DNA from: an uncultured Bacteroidota bacterium
Lineage (GTDB): Bacteria; Bacteroidota; Bacteroidia; Chitinophagales; Chitinophagaceae
Direction of reading: 5' to 3'
Assembly (NCBI GenBank): GCA_903881265.1
Contig: CAIRSV010000160.1
Span: 1-34,709, forward strand
DNA: 34,709 nt
The position numbers were made by a program, and so were the translations under genes. Below, piece after piece: positions 1,721-12,540 of this stretch; position 1 is the first letter of the stretch; each line of letters starts with the position of its first letter. The notes beneath the pieces were generated by a model that worked only from the letters and a program-made list of their open reading frames with translations, was not told where the DNA came from and searched no databases.

Positions 1721-2512
1721 ATGAACGTACGAACATATGCCGAGTATCAGGCTAACAATGAAACCCCTGAAATCCTTTTTTGGGTAGGATGCGCAGGCAG
1801 TTTTGACCAACGGGCTCAAAAAGTTACCAAAGCTTTTGTTGACATATTAAACCATGTCGGTATTCAATTTGCCATCTTGGGCAAAGAAGAAATGTGCACT
1901 GGCGATCCGGCACGAAGAGCGGGCAACGAATTCCTGTTTCAGATGATGGCGTATAATAATATTCAAACAATGAATATGTATGCGGTGAAAAAGATTGTTA
2001 CCACTTGCCCGCATTGTTTTAATACATTAAAGAATGAATATCCTGAATTGGGTGGCAATTACGAAGTGATTTCGCATGCTGTGTATCTGCAGCAACTCAT
2101 CAATGATGGTAAATTAAAAATGAAAGAAGGTGGTGAATTCAAAGGCACAAAAATCACGTATCACGACAGTTGTTATCTAGGTCGTGCGAATGGTGTATTT
2201 GAAGCACCTCGTGAGGTATTGCAATCACTAGATGCTGAACTAATTGAAATGAAGCGATGCAAAACCAATGGATTATGTTGTGGTGCTGGTGGCGCGCAGA
2301 TGTTTAAAGAAGATGAAGAAGGAACTTCAAGAGTCAATTGGGAACGCACAGCCGAAGCGCTAGAAACAGGCGCTAAAGTTATCGCCAGTAATTGTCCGTT
2401 TTGTCTTACTATGCTCACTGATGGTGTAAAGAATAAGGAGAAAGAAGACGAAGTACAAGTGTTGGATATTGCTGAGATGATTGCTCGAGGCATCCCTAAC
2501 GCATCATTGTAA
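1721..2512 (+). CDS. CCG-domain (Fe-S)-binding oxidoreductase subunit (HdrB/LutA-like)
   Basis: Cysteine-rich CCG motifs (CPHCFNTL; CCGAGGAQMFKED; NCPFCLTML); co-oriented with the preceding Fe-S protein. Confidence 0.85.
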   Translation: MNVRTYAEYQANNETPEILFWVGCAGSFDQRAQKVTKAFVDILNHVGIQFAILGKEEMCTGDPARRAGNEFLFQMMAYNNIQTMNMYAVKKIVTTCPHCFNTLKNEYPELGGNYEVISHAVYLQQLINDGKLKMKEGGEFKGTKITYHDSCYLGRANGVFEAPREVLQSLDAELIEMKRCKTNGLCCGAGGAQMFKEDEEGTSRVNWERTAEALETGAKVIASNCPFCLTMLTDGVKNKEKEDEVQVLDIAEMIARGIPNASL

Positions 2513-2607
2513 TTTTCAGCACTATCGTATTCAATCAATATAGCAGGTAGATGTGAAAAGATTATTTTTGAAGAGGCTTCACATGGAAGCGATTTGCGCT
2601 AAAAACC

Positions 2608-2799
2608 TTGTTTTGGTTCGTTGTAAAAATTTCATGTGAACTATTCTTTTCATTCGTTGATCACACGTTTTATAAGGTGTTTACATATCACTCATTGCGC
2701 GCAATCGGAATCGAGTCGGTCGTGATGGGTTTCTTGTTCTCCCTTTGGTTCGAACCTCGAATGGATAAAGATTTTTGGAAGAGAAAAAAGAAACAGTAA
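2608..2799 (+). CDS. Small membrane protein candidate (TTG start as tracked; may extend upstream)
   Basis: Hydrophobic segments followed by a charged tail FEPRMDKDFWKRKKKQ; protein-like composition. Confidence 0.45.
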   Translation: MFWFVVKISCELFFSFVDHTFYKVFTYHSLRAIGIESVVMGFLFSLWFEPRMDKDFWKRKKKQ

Positions 2800-2810
2800 C
2801 CTTTGCATCA

Positions 2811-3314
2811 ATGACAACAGAAGTAGCCACAATTTTACCAACCGATTTTGCACCCAACTCTAGGGTTTGGATTTATCAGAGCAACCGCCCATTTTCAGAT
2901 CAAGAGGAAAAGGAAATCAATGAGCAGTTGTTTACTTTTTATTCGCAATGGCTATCGCACGGCGCCGCTGTGAAAGGTTGGGCCAAACTTGTTTTCAAGC
3001 AATTCGTGATCGTGATGGCTGATGAACGTTATACTGGTGTAGGTGGATGTAGCACTGATAGCATGGTTCGAATTATCAAAAGTTTCGATCGGCAGTATTC
3101 AGTGGATTTATTTGACAGACTTAGCATCACCTTCCTTGTCGATGAGAAACCGCAGCCACTTCCAATGCAGCAGGTTAAGTATGCACTCGAAAAAGGGTAT
3201 ATCAAAACAGACACCTTGCTCTTCAATAATACAGTGGATACGAAAGAAAAGTTGGAACAAGAATGGCTCGTTCCGCTCAATAAAAGTTGGCTTTGGAATA
3301 GAATTGCCAATTAA
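2811..3314 (+). CDS. Bacteroidota conserved hypothetical, often labelled 'ABC transporter ATPase'
   Basis: MTTEVATILPTDFAPNSRVWIYQSNRPFSDQEEKEI...VKGWAKLFKQF-like family; start at the second Met of the ORF. Confidence 0.65.
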   Translation: MTTEVATILPTDFAPNSRVWIYQSNRPFSDQEEKEINEQLFTFYSQWLSHGAAVKGWAKLVFKQFVIVMADERYTGVGGCSTDSMVRIIKSFDRQYSVDLFDRLSITFLVDEKPQPLPMQQVKYALEKGYIKTDTLLFNNTVDTKEKLEQEWLVPLNKSWLWNRIAN

Positions 3315-3333
3315 GATTTTTTATTTATCTTCG
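3304..3333 (+). promoter_or_regulatory. tRNA-Arg promoter
   Basis: TTG (3304-3306) - 19 nt - TATCTTCG (3326-3333), 12 nt upstream of the mature tRNA. Confidence 0.5.
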
Positions 3334-3344
3334 CCGCCCTAAAC

Positions 3345-3418
3345 GGTCCGGTAGCTCAGCTGGATAGAGCAACAGCCTTCTAAGCTGTAGGTCATTGGTT
3401 CGAATCCAATCCGGATCA
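3345..3418 (+). tRNA. tRNA-Arg (anticodon TCT)
   Basis: Acceptor GGTCCGG/CCGGATC, D arm GCTC..GAGC, anticodon arm ACAGC-CTTCTAA-GCTGT, T arm ATTGG-TTCGAAT-CCAAT, discriminator A; no encoded CCA. Confidence 0.95.
3388..3417 (+). repeat. 30-bp direct repeat, copy 1 (tRNA variable region, T arm and 3' acceptor)
   Basis: TAGGTCATTGGTTCGAATCCAATCCGGATC identical to 3717-3746. Confidence 0.95.
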
Positions 3419-3421
3419 CTC

Positions 3422-3455
3422 AAGGTTCTCTATTATTATAGAGGACCTTTTTTTT
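3422..3455 (+). terminator. Rho-independent terminator of the tRNA gene
   Basis: 12-bp stem AAGGTTCTCTAT/ATAGAGGACCTT, loop TATT, then an 8-nt T tract. Confidence 0.85.
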
Positions 3456-3710
3456 ATGTTTTACGTTTATATAATTTACAGTCAAAAACTTGATAAATTT
3501 TACATTGGATATACTACTAATATTCAAATGAGATTTCATCAATATCATAACCAAGGTAGAAGCAAGTTTACCAGCAGAGGAATTCCTTGGGAATTCTGCT
3601 ATTCAGAATCGTTTGAAACAGAAATTGAAGCGATACGAAGAGAAAAACAAATTAAGCTTACGAAAAGCAGAAAATATATTCTCAGCTTAATAGAGCAATC
3701 CCGATTTTAA
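3456..3710 (+). CDS. Small GIY-YIG domain nuclease (UvrC/YhbQ-like)
   Basis: MFYVYIIYSQKLDKFYIGYTTNIQMRFHQYHNQ...FETEIEAIRREKQIK: GIY-YIG signature (YVYII...YIGYT), Arg and EAIRRE motif. Confidence 0.9.
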   Translation: MFYVYIIYSQKLDKFYIGYTTNIQMRFHQYHNQGRSKFTSRGIPWEFCYSESFETEIEAIRREKQIKLTKSRKYILSLIEQSRF

Positions 3711-3746
3711 TCGGGATAGGTCATTGGTTCGAATCCAATCCGGATC
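3681..3746 (+). pseudogene. Degenerate tRNA-Arg copy overlapping the GIY-YIG 3' end
   Basis: CTCAGCTTAATAGAGCAA versus tRNA CTCAGCTGGATAGAGCAA (16/18), then a 20-nt palindrome in place of the anticodon arm, then an exact 30-nt match to the tRNA 3' end (3717-3746). The 5' acceptor strand is absent. Confidence 0.85.
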
Positions 3747-3751
3747 GCATT

Positions 3752-3778
3752 CATCCACCTTGTGCGGATGTTTTTTTT
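3752..3778 (+). terminator. Putative terminator after the tRNA relic
   Basis: CATCC...GGATG hairpin followed by T8. Confidence 0.6.
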
Positions 3779-8357: not shown

Positions 8358-8637
8358 TAACGGGCGAACTTCTGTAATACCCTGCAAATAAAGACTTCCA
8401 TTGATGTGTCATATGCTGCGCACGTACCATTTATTTTGTGTGCAATGATTCTAGCGCCTGATGAAGAATGCGTATAATGAATGAATGAATACCTATTCTC
8501 GCACGAATAAATCGTTCATGTGCTTCCTGTATTTTATACGAACAAGACCATTGCCCAACAAAACCCGATCGAGGTTTCGTATTGACAAGTTTTTAAAATA
8601 TATTTACAAGGCGATTTATCACTCAATTATATTTACA

Positions 8638-11600
8638 ATGCCCTATTTCTATACTCAACTTGTTCGCAAGTTTGCTTGCCTAGTTTGTTTCACATTCTTG
8701 TCGTATACCTCCTTCTCGCAAGCTGGCTGGACTGCATTAATAACCGTCACTAATTTAGTACAAACCGATGCCAATACGTTCGAGTATGAAGTTTACATTA
8801 CTAATAATGGCCCTGTCAATTATGCCATCGCTGGATATTCATGGGGGATGAACATGACACCGGGTATTGCCAACGGTGGTACCATACAACATACCTATTT
8901 ATGCCGAGATGCTATATTCAACCCACTACCTGCTGTAACAGCGGGATACACAGCCATGACTTCTCATTTGAGAGCCACCACAACCAATGTCGGTGCAGGA
9001 AGTGAAGTGTCGCTCATACCCGGCATGCCTTATAAATTAGGCAGAATGCGTGTTCATACCACTGCTGCCACTTGGGCCTCTAATGCGAATCCTTTTGTAC
9101 CGGTAACGCCAACAACACCAATACAAGTTGTGTTTGCAGCAGGTAAAACTCAATGCATCATTACAGCTGTGCTAGCGCCTGGCATAGCCCCATCCTATTC
9201 GATCAATGGCGTTGCAAATGCAGCATCAGCTACGTCTATTCAAGGACTTACAGCAGTGATGATACCCGACCCGGCTGGCAGCAATCCATTTCTGTTGAAT
9301 TGCAGTACATGCCTCTATGGCACACCAGTTTCGGCTTGCAATAGTTATACCTGGGTAGCTAATGGACAAACCTATACAAACAGCGGCACCTACACGCAAA
9401 CCTTTATGCTTCCAAGTGGATGTGATAGTGTTTCACAAATCAATCTGTCTATTAAACAATCTAGTTCGGCCACCTTTAATCAGACAGGATGCGATACGGT
9501 GATAATGAATGGGATGACGTATACAGCTACCGGTGTGTATTCAACTACATTAACCAATGCAGTTGGTTGCGATAGTGTCATAACGAACAATGCCACAGTC
9601 AAGCATAGTTCTGCCATCAGTATAAGTGCTACAGCTTGTAACAGCTATACGTTCAATGGGCAGACCTACAGCAATAGCGGCGTGTATGTTCAAACATTGT
9701 TGAATGCGGCAGGTTGCGACAGCACCATTACCCTCAATGCGACAATCAATCACAGCAGTGTATCAACCAACAGCCAAACAGCTTGTAATGCATACACTTG
9801 GAACGGACAAACCTATACTAGCAGCGGAACATTTACTCAAACATTAATGAATAGTGTAGGTTGTGATAGCACACTCACGCTTCAACTTATTATACATGCT
9901 AGTTCAACTACAACCTTGAATTACACTGCATGCAACTCGTACGTTTGGAACGGGCAAACCTATACCAATAGCGGCAACTACGCTATCCCGTTCACCAATA
10001 TCTATGGATGTGATAGCACCTCGTTGCTTACTTTGGTTATTCATTTAAGTGCCACGACAAGCACGAGCCACACGGCCTGTAATTCGTATGTATGGAATAC
10101 GCAGACCTATACCACTAGCGGCACATTCACTCATAACTATCTGACTACATTCGGCTGCGATAGTATCGCCACCTTGATACTGACTATCAATCAGACGTCC
10201 ACTTCGACCACCAACCAAACAGCGTGCAACTCGTATACTTGGAACGGGCAATCGTATAATACAAGCGGTACATTCACTCAAACAGTCATCAATAATGCCG
10301 GTTGCGATAGCATACTCACGCTTCAACTTGTGATAGTACCAAGTCCGATTACAACCTTCAATACTACTGCTTGTAACGCCTATGTTTGGAACGGACAAAC
10401 CTATACCAACAGTGGCACCTATACACTCACGAACACAGCTAGCAATGGTTGTGATAGTACGTCGACTCTTAATCTTGTGATTCAATTAAGTGCCACATCA
10501 ACTGTTAGTCATACTGCCTGCAACGCATATCAATGGGCGACACAGACCTATACTAATAGCGGTACATATATTTATAGCTTTGTCAACGCGTTCGGCTGCG
10601 ATAGTATTGCCACCTTGATACTGACTATCAATCAAACGTCCACTTCGACAACCAACCAAACTGCGTGTAACTCGTATACTTGGAACGGACAATCGTATAC
10701 TACAAGCGGCACATTTACTCAAACATTCATCAATTATGCAGGTTGTGATAGCATACTCACACTTCACCTTATCATATATCCTACTTCAACTACAACCTTG
10801 AATCAAACGGCTTGTAACTCGTATGTTTGGAACGGACAAACCTATACTATTAGTGGCAGCCACTCATTGACGTTCACAAATATCTATGGATGTGATAGCA
10901 CTGCCAATCTTAATCTCATCATTCATTTGAGTGCCACGACAAGCACGAGTCATACTGCCTGCAACTCGTATTTTTGGAATGCACAGACCTATACAAACAG
11001 CGGTGCCTATACCCATAGCTATCTTACGATATTCGGATGCGATAGTATTGCGTCTTTGTTGCTGACTATCAATCAGACTTCCTCTTCTACCATAAATCAA
11101 AGTGCGTGTAATTCGTATACTTGGAATGCGCAAACGTATACCAACACAGGAAGCTATGCACAAACCTATCTAAACACAGCAGGTTGCGACAGCGTGGCTT
11201 ATCTCAACCTGATAATAAAATATGCATCTATCGCAACGTTCAATCAAGCTGCCTGTGACAGCTATGTATGGTTCACACAAACCTATACCAATAGCGGAAC
11301 ATATATTCACACCTTAGTAAATGCAGCGGGATGCGACAGTACCATTACACTCAACCTAAGCATCAACCAAAGTAGCAATGCTTCTATTAATCAAAATGCG
11401 TGTGAATCGTATCTATGGAATGGGCAAACGTATACTGTCAGCGGCATACATACCCATACATTTACTAGTATTGCCGGATGCGATAGTGTGGTAACACTCA
11501 ATCTCAGCATTCATTATCAAACCGCATCAACATTGAATTTGACGGCTTGTAATTTTTTAGTGTACAATGGACAAACCTATACAAGTAGCGGAAGCTTTAC

Positions 11601-12540
11601 ACAAATTCTTGTCAATAGTCAGGGTTGTGATAGTGCTGCTACCTTAATCATCACAATCCAATCTAGCAGCAGTCATTCAGTAAGTCAGACTGCTTGTAAC
11701 AGCTATACCCTGAATGGACAAACATATAACAGCAGCGGCACCTACAATCAGCTGTATACGAATGCTGTGGGTTGCGATAGTACGTTAACATTAAACCTTG
11801 TGATTCATCCAGATGAGTACACGTTCGAAAATAAAAGTGACTGTAATTTTGTTACTTGGAACGGACAAGTGTACACAAACAGTGGCACCTATTCGCAGAG
11901 CTACATAGCTTCTACAGGCTGTGATAGTATCGCAACATTAATTGCTACTATCTTCACTAATACCACAAGTAGCATCACCCTATCGGGCTGTACTTCTGTT
12001 TCGTTGAATGGTCAAAACTATACAAGCAGCGGTACGTATGCGCAGCATCTGCTGAATGCGAATGGGTGCGATAGTTCGATTTTACTTTATGTCACAATTG
12101 AACTGAATAGTGCCACAGAACAATACCTGCATTTATGCAAAGGAAAAAGCATCACGATAGGTCAACATACCTATACAACAACGGGTGATTTTATCGACAC
12201 CTTACAAAATAGTTCCGGATGCGACAGTGTTATCACGACACATCTCGAAGTCGAAAATTCGCAGGAAGGCGGTTATTTTATTGCCAATGCCTTTTCACCT
12301 AATAATGATGGTTTGAATGATTGCTTCGGAATCACCTATTGGAAGAATGTCGAGAAATTGCAGTTCATCATCTGCAATCGATGGGGAGAAGTGGTATTTA
12401 AGACAACACAAATATGGGATTGTTGGAACGGCCATTACAAAGGAGCTCCTTCAGAACAAGGCACGTATTATTATTACATCAAAGCTACATTCAGTTGCGG
12501 CGAACAAGTCTATAAAGGTGATCTGACGTTGATTCGGTAG
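8638..12540 (+). CDS. Secreted tandem-repeat protein with gliding motility-associated C-terminal (CHU_C) domain
   Basis: Signal peptide MPYFYTQLVRKFACLVCFTFLSYTSFSQA starts at 8638, inside the 8485 ORF; about 20 repeats of ~49 aa; C-terminal FSPNNDGLNDCFGI...NRWGEVVF...GTYYYYIKA...YKGDLTLIR. Confidence 0.9.
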   Translation: MPYFYTQLVRKFACLVCFTFLSYTSFSQAGWTALITVTNLVQTDANTFEYEVYITNNGPVNYAIAGYSWGMNMTPGIANGGTIQHTYLCRDAIFNPLPAVTAGYTAMTSHLRATTTNVGAGSEVSLIPGMPYKLGRMRVHTTAATWASNANPFVPVTPTTPIQVVFAAGKTQCIITAVLAPGIAPSYSINGVANAASATSIQGLTAVMIPDPAGSNPFLLNCSTCLYGTPVSACNSYTWVANGQTYTNSGTYTQTFMLPSGCDSVSQINLSIKQSSSATFNQTGCDTVIMNGMTYTATGVYSTTLTNAVGCDSVITNNATVKHSSAISISATACNSYTFNGQTYSNSGVYVQTLLNAAGCDSTITLNATINHSSVSTNSQTACNAYTWNGQTYTSSGTFTQTLMNSVGCDSTLTLQLIIHASSTTTLNYTACNSYVWNGQTYTNSGNYAIPFTNIYGCDSTSLLTLVIHLSATTSTSHTACNSYVWNTQTYTTSGTFTHNYLTTFGCDSIATLILTINQTSTSTTNQTACNSYTWNGQSYNTSGTFTQTVINNAGCDSILTLQLVIVPSPITTFNTTACNAYVWNGQTYTNSGTYTLTNTASNGCDSTSTLNLVIQLSATSTVSHTACNAYQWATQTYTNSGTYIYSFVNAFGCDSIATLILTINQTSTSTTNQTACNSYTWNGQSYTTSGTFTQTFINYAGCDSILTLHLIIYPTSTTTLNQTACNSYVWNGQTYTISGSHSLTFTNIYGCDSTANLNLIIHLSATTSTSHTACNSYFWNAQTYTNSGAYTHSYLTIFGCDSIASLLLTINQTSSSTINQSACNSYTWNAQTYTNTGSYAQTYLNTAGCDSVAYLNLIIKYASIATFNQAACDSYVWFTQTYTNSGTYIHTLVNAAGCDSTITLNLSINQSSNASINQNACESYLWNGQTYTVSGIHTHTFTSIAGCDSVVTLNLSIHYQTASTLNLTACNFLVYNGQTYTSSGSFTQILVNSQGCDSAATLIITIQSSSSHSVSQTACNSYTLNGQTYNSSGTYNQLYTNAVGCDSTLTLNLVIHPDEYTFENKSDCNFVTWNGQVYTNSGTYSQSYIASTGCDSIATLIATIFTNTTSSITLSGCTSVSLNGQNYTSSGTYAQHLLNANGCDSSILLYVTIELNSATEQYLHLCKGKSITIGQHTYTTTGDFIDTLQNSSGCDSVITTHLEVENSQEGGYFIANAFSPNNDGLNDCFGITYWKNVEKLQFIICNRWGEVVFKTTQIWDCWNGHYKGAPSEQGTYYYYIKATFSCGEQVYKGDLTLIR
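9322..12258 (+). repeat. About 20 tandem ~147-bp coding repeats (consensus NQTACNSYTWNGQTYTNSGTYTQTFxNxxGCDSxxTLNLxIxxSSxxT)
   Basis: Read directly from the translation; most units are exactly 147 nt. Confidence 0.95.

Follow-up and report, generated by a model that had tools for sequence, protein, structure and literature searches.

A GIY-YIG nuclease unit beside a rebuilt tRNA-Arg gene in a Bacteroidota bacterium: a candidate homing-type element of tRNA genes

Organization of the tRNA-Arg locus

The window analysed here is the whole stretch of 34,709 nucleotides of contig CAIRSV010000160.1 from an uncultured bacterium of the Chitinophagaceae. It contains a tRNA-Arg(TCT) gene (T), a terminator, a small GIY-YIG nuclease gene, a degenerate tRNA-Arg copy (T'), and a second terminator in direct succession (Table 1). 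These parts had been named in a preliminary description of the same DNA, together with an exact 30-bp repeat shared by the two tRNA copies. The tRNA gene was confirmed by ARAGORN and Rfam, the nuclease gene by Pfam (against a cut-off of 22.6 bits for PF01541), and the repeat by renewed repeat comparison; both terminators are present. No further exact tRNA match of the size of the 30-bp repeat occurs elsewhere in the window.

Table 1. Features of the element-bearing tRNA-Arg site (window coordinates)
Feature	Position	Strand	Basis
Upstream flanking ORF, 179 aa, orthology marker in G008, G003 and G002	2775-3314	+	
Intact, functional-looking tRNA-Arg(TCT) (T)	3345-3418	+	ARAGORN (3345-3419); Rfam RF00005, 72 bits
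Terminator of the inserted unit	3422-3455	+	12-bp stem, -15.7 kcal/mol
GIY-YIG nuclease, 84 aa	3456-3710	+	PF01541, 61.6 bits, E 8.7e-17
T', degenerate tRNA-Arg copy (D-arm, hairpin and exact 3' part)	3681-3746	+	Repeats
D-arm part of T'	3681-3698	+	16/18 identical (89%) to 3355-3372
Hairpin X, ATCCCGATTTTAATCGGGAT, replacing the anticodon arm of T'	3698-3717	+	Palindrome
tRNA 3' part, 30-bp exact copy (variable loop, T-arm, acceptor)	3717-3746	+	Identical to 3388-3417
Second terminator, native to the tRNA and displaced by the insertion	3748-3778	+	Homologue in G008

The T-run of the first terminator directly abuts the ATG of the nuclease ORF, and the final ~10 codons of this ORF consist of tRNA-like D-arm sequence and hairpin X, the D-arm being read as codons LSLIEQ and the hairpin holding the TAA stop. 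T' is devoid of the 5' acceptor strand and is not called by ARAGORN. The TCCCGA..TCGGGA pair of the hairpin occurs once in the window, compared with 0.01 occurrences expected by chance. Neither the replacement of the anticodon arm by a hairpin nor the tRNA-derived nature of the ORF 3' end figured in the preliminary description.

The nuclease gene is the only recognisable gene in the 329 bp of the inserted unit. As had been stated earlier, no integrase or transposase adjoins the element in the ORF and Pfam survey, and no inverted repeat links the two ends of the unit. Since transposase and terminal inverted repeats are lacking and the duplicated stretch is tRNA sequence, an insertion sequence or transposon was rejected. 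A group I or group II intron was rejected as well, because the tRNA gene is intact and uninterrupted and no intron family was matched in the window at the Rfam gathering threshold. The label 'ABC ATPase' given earlier to the upstream frame (2811-3314) could not be upheld, as the flanking ORF has no Pfam match. Elsewhere in the window (8485-12540), a large ORF of 1351 aa is composed of ~50-residue repeats (ACNSYTWNGQTYT..GCDS type) and probably encodes a cell-surface protein.

An empty allele of the locus is found in the congener G008, whose contig C106 aligns to window positions 2330-3419 at 79% identity, through the flanking ORF and the tRNA gene, the latter being 99% identical to T and in the same position. 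After the tRNA, the alignment jumps to the terminator at ~3750-3778, and precisely 329 bp, the exact spacing of the 30-bp repeat, are absent. This bears out the proposal of the preliminary description that an insertion of about 0.33 kb entered the tRNA gene and that an intact tRNA was rebuilt upstream. The comparison with G008 also indicates that the terminator 3' of T' is native, and that the terminator 3' of the intact tRNA, which is missing in the empty allele, came with the unit. An identical copy of the latter lies beside the tRNA-Arg of another congener, G007, where the contigs break and no nuclease was found; G007 was not counted as occupied. The 3' parts of T and T' are identical in the window and too short for phylogeny to separate imported from native sequence, and that of T' is taken as the host's own 3' end, displaced downstream. 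In G002 and G003, the upstream flank is alike (71-73% identity) and the tRNA-Arg carries no unit.

The same polymorphism is present in Parafilimonas (G021, G146, G474, and G476-G479), where four species have an orthologous tRNA-Arg that is single and free of the unit, and three others have an occupied site. G021 contains two complete units, G476 three nuclease genes and one left copy, and G478 at least one nuclease gene and two left copies. In the last two, a T' copy adjoins the native promoter region (AACTAATTAAAAATTA..TTTTGC), and the intact tRNA gene is found deeper within the array. Genome assemblies from cultured strains, among them that of Parafilimonas terrae DSM 28286 (G021, locus L200), show the layout as well; it is therefore not confined to metagenome bins. 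Empty sites in relatives, for which the preliminary description had proposed to look, thus exist in G008 and in four Parafilimonas species. A homing element should be present or absent at one defined position of a conserved gene and have exact empty alleles, and this pattern is displayed by the window and G008 and by the four empty and three occupied Parafilimonas. For tRNA-Arg and tRNA-Lys, the types compared, occupied and empty genomes do not differ in the sequence of the intact tRNA. The idea that a changed anticodon stem confers immunity on the intact tRNA was rejected, since this stem is the same in empty genomes.

The nuclease family at other tRNA genes

Similarity to two tRNA-linked nucleases was used to collect a sample of 137 GIY-YIG loci from the family and class to which the window belongs. 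An intact tRNA gene lies within 400 nt of the nuclease in 108 of the 137 loci, a fraction that describes this similarity-drawn sample and not all GIY-YIG genes, and 23 isoacceptors are represented. The recurrent association of short GIY-YIG ORFs with tRNA genes and duplicated tRNA parts, which had been suggested as a check, is thereby established. The orientation is almost invariable (125 tRNA hits on the same strand and 1 on the opposite strand), and the distance from the tRNA to the nuclease domain downstream of it is mostly 11-97 nt. Within 300 nt after this domain, 80/97 loci repeat the 3' half of the tRNA, and 38/97 have 5'-half copies before the tRNA; the left-side units lack an ORF. Tandem arrays comprise up to about ten units (G283, 457-bp spacing), and decayed nuclease copies are present in many of them. 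A position of the youngest unit next to the tRNA received only a weak signal, the first unit being the better one in 9 arrays and the last in 4. Several loci without an ARAGORN tRNA had tRNA 3' or T' pieces. Other structured RNAs were discarded as targets because an Rfam search of 30 loci returned tRNA alone.

In the window's genus, most small GIY-YIG ORFs adjoin a tRNA gene, namely Leu(taa), Arg(acg), Asp, Pro, Val, or Arg(tct). Six loci of the window's own genome match PF01541, three of which are tRNA-linked, and tRNA-Leu-like and tRNA-Pro-like pieces were detected at contig ends in two own-genome loci (C125 and C154). When the sample was anchored on the tRNA instead, a nuclease was found at 4 of 31 tRNA-Arg(tct) loci, and 24 were bare. 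Outside Bacteroidota, the layout with its repeats was observed at single loci of Planctomycetota, Acidobacteriota, Verrucomicrobiota, Ignavibacteriota, and candidate phyla; it was not seen in the few loci fetched from Bacillota or archaea. The related loci are located on bacterial genome contigs. A phage collection yielded one weak homologue of the window nuclease (36% identity), and a plasmid collection yielded 35%-identical hits in three Sinorhizobium records only.

T' copies have a typical structure, in which tRNA position ~26-28 is joined to position 44/45 via X, i.e., the anticodon arm is lost. In certain lineages, those of Asp, Met, Phe, and Ser, the hairpin is found in a neighbouring arm instead. 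A perfect stem of at least 5 bp is present in 27/39 X segments of 12-24 nt, compared with 2.2% of shuffled sequences. The stems vary in sequence between loci, yet 97% of their positions are paired, compared with 57% when strands are re-dealt among loci, a test that took only hairpin-bearing X from a set chosen for clean hairpins. A REP-like repeat dispersed over the genome was also considered for X and dismissed, because each genome contains 1-23 occurrences of TCCCGA..TCGGGA, some of them in tRNA arrays, which is below the REP scale. With regard to the end of the ORF, the stop codon is TAG in 51/95 cases, compared with 20/105 long neighbouring ORFs, because the D-loop often supplies TAG.

Some loci depart from the common layout. 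At L019 and L103, the broken tRNA copies have a palindrome of another kind (CCTGCCTGCCGGCAGGCAGG type) inserted into their D-loop. L019 also has a reverse layout, with the nuclease upstream and its ORF running into the 5' end of the intact tRNA; the reverse layout was also found in L097 and L109, at tRNA-Pro(ggg). In Litoribacter populi (L222 and L223), three GIY-YIG genes are interspersed among copies of tRNA-Cys and tRNA-Lys, and the locus may hold a nested pair of elements that differ in tRNA type. Hairpin-bearing broken copies occur near an intact tRNA with no nuclease gene in L292 (G023) and L021 (G033), and these arrays are possibly remnants or non-autonomous units. In L096, L133, and L143, the piece upstream of the nuclease starts at about the anticodon arm or later and lacks a 5' tRNA half, which would fit a unit that integrated, or persisted, away from any complete tRNA gene; such loci could reveal the true ends of the unit. 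A fourth small GIY-YIG gene of the window's own genome (L002, contig C179, 1170-2000) is not linked to a tRNA and is flanked on both sides by TGTCATGCTGAGCG(A/C)AGC repeat arrays, 3.2 kb containing 11 ATGCTGAGC-type motifs; G008 has a close relative (L052).

The AlphaFold2 model of the 84-aa nuclease has a GIY-YIG fold (pLDDT 82.8), and its nearest folds are UPF0213 (1zg2) and Slx1, followed by I-TevI. It comprises the catalytic domain alone, with no second or separate DNA-binding domain. Residues Y5, Y16, R26, H31, E63, and K67 are invariant among 24 relatives, and G18 is kept in >90%. A tree was built from 133 nuclease domains, trimmed before the tRNA-derived C-terminus in the cases checked. 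On its 74 columns, with many weak forks, tRNA type requires 43 changes compared with 80.5 after shuffling (0/200 shuffles as low), and host family requires 47 compared with 51.1. The nuclease phylogeny thus tracks tRNA type and hardly host family; each of the labels Met, Val, Ala, Asn, and Asp is concentrated in clades that include several host families. A host-incongruent history with site-specific lineages, as is characteristic of homing elements, is therefore seen to the extent that this short alignment and its many weak forks allow. Over 100 nuclease pairs, the median dN/dS is 0.15 and none reaches 1, which indicates purifying selection. Neighbouring units of one array are separated by dS of 0.2-0.65, also with dN/dS <1; array units are therefore often separate arrivals or old copies whose protein is under selection.

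A putative homing cycle and competing explanations

Taken together, the family is probably an intron-free, homing-type selfish element that is specialised on tRNA genes and rebuilds the tRNA it enters. The mobile unit would consist of a tRNA 3' part, a terminator, the GIY-YIG gene, a D-arm piece, and the hairpin. Briefly, the nuclease may break an empty tRNA gene in or near the anticodon arm, and the break may be repaired from an element-bearing copy, with the tRNA sequence on both sides serving as homology arms. Upon insertion at the anticodon arm, the tRNA 3' part of the unit would be joined to the host 5' half to give a working tRNA, and the original 3' part of the host would be pushed downstream, behind the D-arm piece and the hairpin, to form T'. 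The position of the hairpin suggests that it marks the destroyed site and that T', having its arm replaced, would no longer contain the cut site. Repeated rounds at the rebuilt tRNA could add units on both sides and so generate the tandem arrays that are observed. The nuclease would thereby drive its own spread.

Several points sit uneasily with homing. The immunity of occupied sites that characterizes classic homing does not extend to T, because the intact tRNA is unchanged relative to empty genomes; self-cutting must therefore be tolerated or suppressed. To judge from the model, the nearest folds belong to UPF0213 and Slx1 rather than to a sequence-specific homing enzyme with its own DNA-binding domain. 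The several copies per array under purifying selection exceed what a decaying homing gene would leave, unless units arrive separately. In addition, the tie to tRNA type could stem from the homology arms rather than from cleavage specificity. A fuller version of the homing reading holds that each nuclease lineage is specialised on one isoacceptor, and that the family forms a chromosomal selfish class in Bacteroidota and other phyla, which performs intron-free homing at tRNA genes, brings replacement tRNA sequence, and swaps the cut-site arm of the broken copy for a perfect hairpin. This fuller version is judged slightly more likely than not.

The main alternative, although we consider it rather unlikely, is a nuclease specific for hairpins or branches. 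Slx1, a eukaryotic nuclease, selects its substrates by structure and acts with a partner; Slx1-like cutting here would be directed not at sequence but at branched or hairpin DNA, such as an extruded tRNA gene or X. Arrays would then form by break-induced unequal exchange between tRNA copies, with the spread to new tRNA genes as a by-product. The closest folds, the small size without a separate DNA-binding domain, and the retention of X as a hairpin in the clean-hairpin set while its sequence varies all agree with such structure-directed recombination; lineages tied to isoacceptors are not expected from it unless the homology arms alone decide. Strong purifying selection, also within arrays at dS 0.2-0.65, together with the maintained stem, might instead reflect a domesticated function, in which the nuclease and a tRNA-like T' RNA benefit either the host or the element and arrays persist for this reason; they might, for instance, counter foreign tRNA genes or tRNA-targeting systems in the manner of a defence or toxin-antitoxin system. 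A phage counterpart, SegB, does have a selectable effect on tRNA dosage (PMC13096335). The extra copies here cannot be complete tRNAs and would give no dosage gain, nuclease copies have decayed in many arrays, and no defence neighbours were recognised in the window; given also the presence and absence within a genus and the grouping of lineages by tRNA type and not by host, domestication is improbable.

Still less can be said for ordinary tandem tRNA duplication, in which a passenger GIY-YIG gene came to lie between two copies, one of which decayed. Tandem tRNA genes do exist, and the nuclease-free arrays of broken copies (L292 and L021) and the left-side units without an ORF would fit. It is nonetheless very unlikely, because it would have to produce the same layout at 23 tRNA types, with the ORF end in the D-arm and the hairpin in the anticodon arm, as well as nuclease lineages sorted by tRNA type across host families. 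Empty and occupied alleles are exactly one unit apart, T' has gained a hairpin and not merely decayed at random, and adjacent array units differ by dS of 0.2-0.65. The native terminator lies behind T', and the native promoter abuts T' in G476 and G478; an appeal to assembly artefact fails on the cultured-strain assemblies. Such an ordinary duplication, named in the preliminary description as an origin that would speak against its proposal, does not explain the native terminator or the tree. tRNA 3' ends are classic attachment sites, and the direct repeat of the tRNA 3' end does resemble an attL/attR pair left by a tRNA-integrating genomic island or phage that lost its integrase. Such a remnant is hardly credible for a unit of only ~330 bp that retains the same size class and gene content over >100 loci, with no integrase between the tRNA and T' in the loci read, copies disrupted at the anticodon arm (outside the usual 3'-end identity block), left-side 5'-half copies, and almost no phage or plasmid homologues.

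Known counterparts and implications

The closest parallels are mobile ORFs (mORFs) of fungal mitochondria, reported from atp6 of Allomyces macrogynus and from atp6, atp9, cox2, and nad3 of Glomus sp., in which an endonuclease ORF brings a replacement 3' part of the gene and the native end is displaced, so that the gene remains functional and no intron is involved (PMC3630166). The window element likewise has an endonuclease ORF, a replacement 3' part, and a displaced native 3' end, with the native terminator behind T', and one mORF (atp9) is of the GIY-YIG type (PMC3630166). mORFs, however, are found in mitochondrial protein-coding genes and are mostly LAGLIDADG, whereas the present family is found at tRNA genes of bacterial chromosomes; its hairpin-bearing broken copies and tandem arrays are not described for mORFs (PMC3630166).

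A second parallel is SegB, a free-standing GIY-YIG homing endonuclease at the tRNA cluster of phages T4 and T6, which in T6 cuts tRNA DNA and drives tandem amplification, the nuclease gene sharing microhomology at its 3' end with the tRNA 5' end; the survey in that study covered phage and archaeal virus proteins (PMC13096335). A nuclease-gene 3' end sharing sequence with the tRNA 5' part and tandem units are also features of the loci surveyed here. On the other hand, the T6 repeats carry functional tRNA-Tyr copies, whereas here the extra copies are broken and one tRNA is rebuilt per locus, and SegB is phage-borne, whereas the present family is chromosomal and the window nuclease has a single weak phage match.

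Single-domain GIY-YIG proteins of the UPF0213/YhbQ type (1zg2 and 1ywl) and Slx1 share the size class or the catalytic fold, and we know of no tRNA-embedded layout for UPF0213 or Slx1. Tyrosine recombinase islands also insert at tRNA genes, restore a complete tRNA, and leave a 3'-end repeat; the window element differs in lacking a recombinase, in its size of ~0.33 kb, in its break point at the anticodon arm, and in having broken copies on either side. Bacterial tRNA genes are also entered by group I introns, which can carry homing endonucleases (PMC3984707), but the window element lies outside an uninterrupted mature tRNA gene and matches no intron family.

Homing-type elements that replace a gene end are thus already known, and the present family is not categorically new. 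It is apparently large and undescribed: no description of such arrays in bacterial chromosomes was found in the open-access literature, subscription papers and preprints being outside the scope of the search. tRNA genes are among the most conserved sequences of a cell. If the interpretation is correct, an element built on an 84-aa nuclease that enters and rebuilds them, with hairpin-marked remains left behind, would be among the smallest autonomous mobile elements, and many of the GIY-YIG ORFs and degenerate tRNA copies of Bacteroidota would find their explanation in it. It would also represent a bacterial counterpart to the mobile ORFs of fungal mitochondria and to phage SegB, and would provide a set of small natural nucleases, each associated with a different tRNA gene. 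The pairs of empty and occupied alleles described here make intron-free homing directly testable.
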